Source: an uncultured Paracoccaceae bacterium (GTDB lineage Bacteria > Pseudomonadota > Alphaproteobacteria > Rhodobacterales > Rhodobacteraceae). From it: a DNA stretch of 64,000 nt. A program made the translations under genes and the position numbers. The notes beneath the pieces were generated by a model that was given only the letters and a program-made list of their open reading frames with translations, was not told where the DNA came from and made no database searches. Position 1 is the first letter of the stretch, and every line of letters starts with the position of its first letter. Positions 1,087 through 2,295 of the stretch are shown here, piece by piece. The stretch covers positions 62,001-126,000 of the forward strand of contig CANMIX010000006.1 in NCBI GenBank assembly GCA_947497985.1, in the 5' to 3' direction.

Positions 1087-1368
1087 TGGGCTGAAATGGG
1101 ACGCGCTGGTGAATTTGGGAATTTACGGCACTTTTGGGAAAGCATGGGAACCCGTCGCACAGTAGTGGGGCGGGTTCTTTCTATTGCCTGCTGGGAAAAA
1201 ATGGGCGGCATGGGAAAGCCTGGGATTTTCGGATAATTCGATTAAACGAATCACCCGTTCCGGCCTGGTTGGGTGGTTTTGGGCCGAAAATCAGGAACCT
1301 TTAGTGAACATGTGTTTCGCTGACCTGCTTCAGAATCCAGTCTTGGGAATTTATGGGAAAATTTTGGG
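1087..1368 (+). promoter_or_regulatory. Extended MraZ-box array (TGGG repeats at about 10-bp spacing)
   Basis: TGGG occurs at 1087, 1097, 1116, 1135, 1145, 1166, 1192, 1202, 1211, 1221, 1270, 1280, 1344, 1354 and 1365, often as TGGGAA, plus a TGGT at 1107. Within sub-arrays the boxes are 9-11 bp apart, one helical turn. E. coli MraZ is known to bind a few TGGGN repeats separated by 5 nt upstream of its own gene, so the pattern and its place before mraZ fit an autoregulatory operator. The number of boxes and the roughly 435-bp distance from the last box to the mraZ start are unusually large. Confidence 0.7.
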
Positions 1369-1509: not shown

Positions 1510-1536
1510 TTGTCAGCCCATTAATTCCCATAGTAT
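1510..1536 (+). promoter_or_regulatory. Candidate promoter for the mraZ leader RNA
   Basis: TTGTCA (1510-1515) and TAGTAT (1531-1536) resemble -35 and -10 elements, but the 15-bp spacing is short. The position would start a transcript near 1543, giving a leader of about 210 nt up to the hairpin terminator. This is inferred from spacing only. Confidence 0.3.
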
Positions 1537-1542
1537 CCCTAT

Positions 1543-1753
1543 CTACATCGAGAGACGGAGAGCTGGGGCAACGAACGACCCCGACCAAAACTAAAAATAG
1601 CAGGTTTCATACAGGCCTTCGCTTTTTCGAAAAAAGAGAGATCCGGCGCGCGGGCGAGCAGACATCCCCCCAGGTGGCGCGCGCAGTCGGACACCCGCTC
1701 AGCGGGACGTGGAGGCGGGTTGATCAGTGGCAGCAGATCAACCCGCCCCTTTT
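1543..1753 (+). ncRNA. upsM: Probable UpsM-type sRNA / attenuated dcw leader
   Basis: In Rhodobacter sphaeroides the dcw cluster is preceded by an extended 5' leader whose transcript mostly stops at a terminator before mraZ, yielding the roughly 200-nt sRNA UpsM, which RNase E processes under stress. Here the same position holds a similar-sized segment. It contains an AU-rich stretch with CTTTTTCG, a CCCGC/GCGGG hairpin at 1694-1706, and a 12-bp terminator hairpin at 1714-1747. Assignment is by synteny, length and 3' structure; I did not compare sequences. The 5' end is only estimated. Confidence 0.6.
1714..1753 (+). terminator. Leader terminator/attenuator upstream of mraZ
   Basis: GGCGGGTTGATC (1714-1725) pairs perfectly with GATCAACCCGCC (1736-1747) across a 10-nt loop and is followed by CCTTTT. 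It lies 50 nt before the mraZ start, so it would end most leader transcripts, with read-through into the dcw genes. Confidence 0.8.
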
Positions 1754-1803: not shown

Positions 1804-2295
1804 TTGGGTCGCAGGTTCAGAGGCGAAGGCCACCATAAGGTGGACACGAAGGGGCGGGTCTCAATTCCGGCTTCCTTTCGCCGTGTGCTTGAGGCTTCAG
1901 ACCCCAATTGGCAGCCCGGCGGCAATCCTGAACTGGTTATTGTGTACGGCGACCAGCGTCGTAAATTCTTAGAAGTCTATACGATCGACGCCATCAACGA
2001 GGTGGACGACAAGATCGACGCCTTGCCGCGCGGCTCAATGCAGCGCAAGATGTTACAGCGCATGTTCCACGGCCAATCTTTCCCGACCAATGTGGATGAG
2101 ACGGGCCGCTTGGTCCTGCCTGCAAAGCTGCGCAACAAGATCGAGCTGGATAAAGAGGCGTTCTTTATTGCGGCGGGTGATACGTTCCAGATTTGGAACC
2201 CTGAGACTTATGACGCTGAAGAGCTGGCTCAGGAAGAAAAGTGGATGGAAGAGCTGCCCGAAAATTTTGATCCGATGGAGTTTCTTGATGGCTAA
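1804..2295 (+). CDS. mraZ: Transcriptional regulator MraZ
   Basis: First gene of the dcw cluster. MraZ is a ring-forming DNA-binding repressor that binds TGGG repeats upstream of its own gene and counteracts RsmH. The product of about 163 residues has two SpoVT/AbrB-like halves, each with a DxxGR motif (DTKGR near 14-18 and DETGR near 98-102). I start it at TTG 1804 because AAGGAG lies 7 nt upstream and the family N-terminus GRRFRGE follows at once. The 28 extra residues in the track would be encoded across the terminator hairpin. rsmH begins 12 nt after the stop. Regulation by the TGGG array and the leader terminator is likely. Confidence 0.93.
   Translation: MGRRFRGEGHHKVDTKGRVSIPASFRRVLEASDPNWQPGGNPELVIVYGDQRRKFLEVYTIDAINEVDDKIDALPRGSMQRKMLQRMFHGQSFPTNVDETGRLVLPAKLRNKIELDKEAFFIAAGDTFQIWNPETYDAEELAQEEKWMEELPENFDPMEFLDG

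Follow-up and report, generated by a model that had tools for sequence, protein, structure and literature searches.

The question raised by the mraZ leader of an uncultured Paracoccaceae bacterium is whether it gives rise to an orthologue of UpsM, a small RNA (sRNA) of R. sphaeroides, and whether that RNA is under the same control by a second sRNA, StsR. UpsM of R. sphaeroides (formerly RSs0682, Weber et al. 2016) starts 268 nt before mraZ and is 206 nt long; the same work described the RNA, with its R2-R4 structure, for the Rhodobacteraceae and gave start-site data of several species (PMC5089854). RNase E cleaves UpsM at position 694,720, which gives a 130-nt product (PMC6238624). The control by StsR (formerly RSs0827), a 72-nt RpoHI/HII-dependent sRNA, was published for R. 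sphaeroides in 2021 (NAR 2021, gkab491). According to three papers that cite this work (PMC8307010, PMC8625941, PMC11354728), StsR binds to UpsM and to the leader of dcw, alters the fold and permits cleavage by RNase E, so that the level of dcw mRNA falls. Since UpsM was published in 2016 and its control by StsR in 2021, this RNA pair is already of a known kind.

The window, i.e. the whole stretch of 64,000 nucleotides that was analysed, opens with a gene encoding an Mrp/NUBPL-type ATPase, which is followed by about 740 bp of intergenic DNA and then by mraZ, the first gene of the dcw operon (1804-2295, plus strand; TTG start; Pfam MraZ PF02381, E = 1.4e-17). Located 3' of mraZ are, in order, rsmH/mraW, a small gene at the ftsL position (probably ftsL), a gene for a penicillin-binding protein and two Mur ligase genes, which places the leader at the head of a dcw operon, as expected for UpsM. 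For comparison we used the mraZ loci of 80 relatives from the Roseobacter clade, giving 81 leaders including that of the window. On the evidence presented below, we consider it highly probable that the leader is an orthologue of R. sphaeroides UpsM and forms part of an StsR-triggered cleavage circuit that lowers dcw output.

The predicted terminator hairpin and promoter region upstream of mraZ

The initial annotation had described a perfect 12-bp hairpin with a T tract 50 nt before mraZ, and this description holds. The hairpin, P4 (1714-1753, plus strand), consists of the 5' arm GGCGGGTTGATC (1714-1725), the loop AGTGGCAGCA (1726-1735) with the nearly invariant core UGGCAGC, and the 3' arm GATCAACCCGCC (1736-1747). 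The arms form 12 perfect pairs and are followed by CCTTTT (1748-1753), with the TTG start codon of mraZ located 50 nt further. P4 is thus a predicted Rho-independent terminator in front of mraZ and would form the 3' end of UpsM. A generic terminator scan of the window did not list P4, because that scan demands five Ts in eight positions and a loop no longer than 8 nt. The T tract is weak, having four Ts after CC, and the tract of the UpsM hairpin of R. sphaeroides, GCTTTCGTTTC, is just as poor. In that species, the terminator has been found experimentally to stop most transcripts, with a read-through of about 1 in 100 (PMC5089854). As termination is efficient there despite an equally poor tract, the weak tract of P4 is no argument against termination.

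A strict script detected the P4 hairpin 5' of mraZ in 76 of the 80 relatives, and the terminator loop motif GTGGCAGC is present in all 81 leaders. Compensatory changes occur at 8 of the 12 pairs of P4, 99.5% of its cells are paired and its loop positions are 92-100% conserved. A search for further terminator loops of this kind returned CAGTGGCAGCAG at one other site in the genome, where a matching hairpin is missing.

In a UpsM leader, a single promoter about 260-270 nt upstream of mraZ would serve both the sRNA and the dcw mRNA. Alignment of the R. sphaeroides start site to the window puts the start at about 1545 (+/- 3) by homology. Directly upstream, we predict a core promoter at 1510-1540 (plus strand) with the hexamers TTGTCA and TATCCC, which were recognised by eye; a generic promoter consensus scan of the window reported no hexamers at 1510-1540. 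The triplet CCAT-N-TTCCCAT-N-ATCCC (minus-strand reading), which resembles MraZ boxes, overlaps this predicted core promoter and does so in 77 of the 80 relatives; in R. sphaeroides it lies directly upstream of the mapped start site. Further upstream, TGGG(A) boxes spaced at 10 bp form arrays (1087-1368, plus strand) that are probable MraZ operators, and boxes of this type recur at 1516-1540, inside the predicted promoter. The region 1061-1545 contains seven TGGG pairs at exactly 10 bp, versus 0.07 in shuffled sequences (maximum 2), and the relatives have a mean of 2.1 such pairs versus 0-0.03 in flanking regions. Binding of MraZ to repeats of this type is established. The arrangement of boxes and promoter looks like autoregulation by MraZ of the promoter that would produce UpsM.

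Structure of the leader RNA and its comparison with UpsM

The presence of a UpsM-like sRNA had initially been proposed from position and length alone, and primary sequences had not been compared. To make this comparison, we built a covariance model (R1) from 23 Roseobacter-clade mraZ leaders, leaving R. sphaeroides out, and thus applied the covariance approach suggested by the initial annotation in the reverse direction. Genome G046 is R. sphaeroides 2.4.1, as its PufL shows 100% identity to the R. sphaeroides PufL of known structure. The RNase E site reported for UpsM, 694,720 (PMC6238624), falls inside the mraZ leader of this genome. R1 matches this leader end to end at the published UpsM locus (L208:2189-2347, full model length, 139.9 bits, E = 8e-39). 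In the window, it matches the core at 1599-1758, again over the full model length, with 178.9 bits. The two RNAs are therefore homologous in sequence and structure, and what had been a proposal from position and length is now supported by a positive primary-sequence comparison.

With the start placed by alignment to R. sphaeroides, the inferred primary transcript of the UpsM orthologue spans 1545-1753 (plus strand) and would be about 209 nt long, in agreement with the roughly 210 nt previously estimated and close to the 206 nt of R. sphaeroides UpsM; one covariance model fits both. The RNAs also share their place before mraZ, the conserved loops and a common order of elements, namely the P1/R1 stem, an StsR-complementary site, R2, R3 and the terminator R4. 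They differ in the distance from the terminator end to mraZ, which is 50 nt in the window, whereas R. sphaeroides has 62 nt (268 minus 206), and the small open reading frame (sORF) of R. sphaeroides has been reported for that species alone. An sRNA likewise arises from leader attenuation in the case of SreA/SreB of Listeria, a parallel that has been drawn before (PMC5089854). Those sRNAs derive from SAM riboswitches, whereas no Rfam family, riboswitches included, gave a match above its gathering score anywhere in our window.

None of 200 shuffled sequences folds as well as the inferred transcript (z = -3.7). In an alignment of 53 sequences, R. sphaeroides and further genera of the family among them, three helices covary: 16 of 28 pairs have compensatory changes on both sides, and none of 500 shuffles was as good. 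Standard pairs make up 97.5% of the paired cells. The alignment was fitted to the model and is thereby biased towards it, but slid controls fall to 22-44%. Among the individual elements, hairpin P2 (R2 of Weber et al.; 1642-1691, plus strand, stem 1642-1652/1680-1691) has the nearly invariant loop GCGAGCAGACAUCCCCCCAGGUGG, whose positions are 92-100% conserved in the 53 family-wide sequences, and its stem is 97.6% paired. The small hairpin P3, CCCGC-UCA-GCGGG (1694-1706, plus strand), shows compensatory changes at four of its five pairs. A fourth stem, P1, is formed in the minimum-energy fold by 1548-1560 and 1617-1630 (both plus strand) and spans the RNase E cleavage region, the equivalent of which, mapped from the published R. 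sphaeroides site, is held by its 3' strand. The strands of P1 match in a species-specific manner: the pairing of strands from the same species has a mean energy of -16.5 kcal/mol versus -13.0 kcal/mol for permuted partners, and none of 5000 permutations was as good.

The leader core is highly conserved, with a mean identity to the window of 0.87. The coding sequence of mraZ reaches 0.79 (0.53 at its third codon positions), the 5' domain 0.65 and the segment separating the hairpin from mraZ 0.56. The motif TTCATACAGGC is present in 81 of 81 leaders and CGAGCAGACATCCCCCCAG in 78 of 81. A 128-codon antisense frame covers 1539-1925 of the window. A peptide encoded by the conserved stretch, be it on one strand or the other, is nevertheless hardly conceivable: 74 of the 80 relatives have no open stretch of 120 amino acids there, the spacers between the conserved blocks differ by single bases among relatives, and the changes in the stems are compensatory rather than codon-like. 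The antisense frame and the small reading frames of the leader were set aside as candidates, as they are not conserved among relatives.

The StsR orthologue and its predicted pairing with the leader

A scan of the genome for sequences complementary to the conserved block at 1600-1616 returned, among chance matches, an intergenic locus outside the window (L090; G000:C4:241226-241302, minus strand) that encodes an StsR orthologue. It is about 76 nt long up to the end of its T-run, comparable to the 72 nt of StsR, and its first 41 nt are near-invariant. The gene possesses a strong terminator of its own and is preceded by a conserved promoter of the RpoH type, CTTGG...TATA, a motif from which we infer the sigma-factor dependence. 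A covariance model built from StsR loci (R2) also detects the StsR of R. sphaeroides (E = 1e-22), and our sequence was set against the R. sphaeroides locus found with this model. In most of the sampled genomes of the family (L090, L101 to L126), the stsR promoter is preceded by a strongly conserved AAACTTTTA-GCTTGG stretch, which exceeds a plain -35 element in length.

The block at 1600-1616 (plus strand), block A, has the sequence GCAGGUUUCAUACAGGC, which is a perfect 17-nt complement of the StsR orthologue and contains the TTCATACAGGC motif found in all leaders. We predict that block A is the StsR binding site. The corresponding site of R. sphaeroides UpsM (GCAGGCUUC) has one mismatch, whereas that of the window has none. 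StsR folds as a hairpin whose loop bears GCCUGUAU, the complement of AUACAGGC in block A. In a co-fold of StsR and UpsM, 17 pairs are formed with a gain of -16.3 kcal/mol, and P1 is opened; the hybrid of the StsR arm, at -46.8, is better than 1000 of 1000 shuffles (-31.8 +/- 3.1). The leader thus appears in silico to be a target of StsR. In the R. sphaeroides locus L208, both the reported cleavage site (694,720) and the 130-nt product point to CGC-UUUCAUCC directly after block A, and the equivalent region of the window (1617-1630) is present within the conserved P1 stem. The proposal that the leader RNA is processed under stress gains support from the StsR orthologue, which is predicted to pair perfectly with it over 17 nt.

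A second contact is possible. The sequence CGAGCAG in the P2 loop (1655-1661, plus strand) is the complement of the StsR 5' end CUGCUCG, and it is collinear with the first contact, lying across the cleavage region from block A. Several leaders in which P2 is otherwise degraded (G324, G118 and G218) keep the GAGCA core, and this survival favours a second contact, which is absent from the StsR-UpsM co-fold. StsR is almost invariant, and convincing covariation between StsR and UpsM is lacking. In G025 and G094, where StsR is changed, covariation was considered and rejected, since the hybrid energies with their own leaders are no better than with other leaders.

The following mechanism would account for these features. 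Transcription would begin near 1545 and in most cases end at P4, yielding an abundant RNA of about 209 nt, and a read-through minority would give mraZ and dcw mRNAs headed by this leader. In stressed or stationary-phase cells, the RpoH-type promoter would produce StsR, whose loop sequence GCCUGUAU would dock on AUACAGGC of block A, with the pairing then growing to 17 bp. This pairing is predicted to open P1 and so expose the RNase E region that directly follows block A. RNase E would then cut free UpsM as well as the leader on the dcw mRNA, with less dcw output as the result. The efficiency of termination, the dependence on RNase E and Hfq and the effect on the dcw level are presumed to resemble those in R. 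sphaeroides. A relative of UpsM and a matching StsR in the same genome indicate that the known stress brake on cell division very probably works in this marine bacterium. The idea that the mechanism extends to this lineage is supported by the homology and by the StsR partner; an extension to Rhodobacteraceae had already been reported in 2016 (PMC5089854). What we add is proof at the sequence level for the lineage, the StsR orthologue with its pairing bases, the covariation test of P1 and the family-wide distribution of both RNAs, part of which may be contained in the 2021 StsR paper. The pairing also names the exact bases for mutation.

Conserved loops and distribution in the family

The C-rich loop of P2, GAGCAGACAUCCCCCCAGG, and the loop core of P4, UGGCAGC, are nearly invariant, and their stems change by compensation. 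Pairing with StsR accounts for at most part of the P2 loop, and the strict conservation of the loops beyond this share points to a further binding partner, which would concern one of the most abundant sRNAs in the model species. We tentatively suggest that the P2 and P4 loops might bind an extra factor that sets read-through, in which case the dcw leader would be a regulated attenuator in nearly all Rhodobacteraceae, and that StsR might clamp 1600-1616 and 1655-1661 around the RNase E region.

Taken further, a protein, RNA or metabolite acting on the two loops would set dcw read-through and the sRNA would be a by-product. A bare terminator requires no loop sequence, and StsR covers block A and perhaps CGAGCAG, so that loops conserved at 92-100% amid compensating stems fit this explanation. 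It is rather doubtful, however, given that the leader matches no Rfam family, that the fold contains no antiterminator rivalling P4, that Weber et al. found no conservation of the putative R2-R4 switch within the family (PMC5089854), and that scanning the genome for complements of the C-rich loop at one mismatch gave just sites inside long reading frames, i.e. no non-coding partner. The same scan bears on another explanation, in which UpsM acts mainly in trans, its loops serve as seeds for mRNAs (the C-rich loop pairing with Shine-Dalgarno regions) and their conservation mirrors the set of targets. C-rich loops are typical seeds of sRNAs. UpsM of R. sphaeroides, moreover, makes up about 60% of the Hfq-bound sRNA, and its overexpression alters the transcriptome (PMC5089854). 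The location of all near-perfect complements inside long reading frames argues against a main role in trans, although short seeds would escape such a scan, and we regard this role as somewhat unlikely.

Orthology with UpsM and control by StsR, the reading that we prefer, also agree with the distribution of the two RNAs. The 12-mer CTGTATGAAACC, which is common to StsR and the complement of the UpsM site, was found in 392 of 398 genomes of the family, representing 349 of 353 genera, mostly in about two copies per genome, and a control with the reversed pattern was mostly absent. Among 22 genomes with a weak or single 12-mer signal, StsR was found in all 22 and UpsM in 15. These results bear on a further alternative, namely that the hairpin and U tract represent a plain intrinsic terminator that merely damps dcw and that the complementarity to StsR is due to chance. 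With this complement kept in nearly every genome, and even in several leaders that have lost most of their other elements, and with a leader core that exceeds the mraZ coding sequence and its third codon positions in identity, such an explanation is very improbable.

No UpsM was detected in the sample of the class outside the family, and among about 380 genomes outside the family just two weak StsR matches were obtained (E = 3e-5 and 6e-5 per genome). The UpsM-StsR pair is thus present in nearly all sampled genera of the Rhodobacteraceae and was not found with confidence in the other alphaproteobacteria sampled. At the sequence level, this settles it as a family-wide device coupling the output of cell-division genes to stress. 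R1 and R2 are supplied as covariance models for the two RNAs.

The leaders of two family members with small genomes (L198 in G084 and L199 in G153) are cut down to the promoter boxes and the StsR site, and the P2 and P4 sequences are lost. These reduced leaders are natural minimal versions of UpsM, and the survival of the StsR site as nearly their sole element suggests that this site is the core function of the leader. Another hairpin, followed by a short T run, was judged by eye to precede mraZ in G084.

The mraZ leaders of G054, G381 and G174 (L202, L201 and L206, respectively) gave no recognisable UpsM block, and the contig of G016 was too short. The first three genomes nevertheless carry StsR and may reveal its action in the absence of UpsM. 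The StsR seed bases are altered in G054 and G381 (GTCTGTACGAAACC). The leaders of these two genomes contain GGGGTAGCGGTT...AATAATAATTCCACGACCGACTACCCC, which resembles a different long hairpin replacing UpsM.
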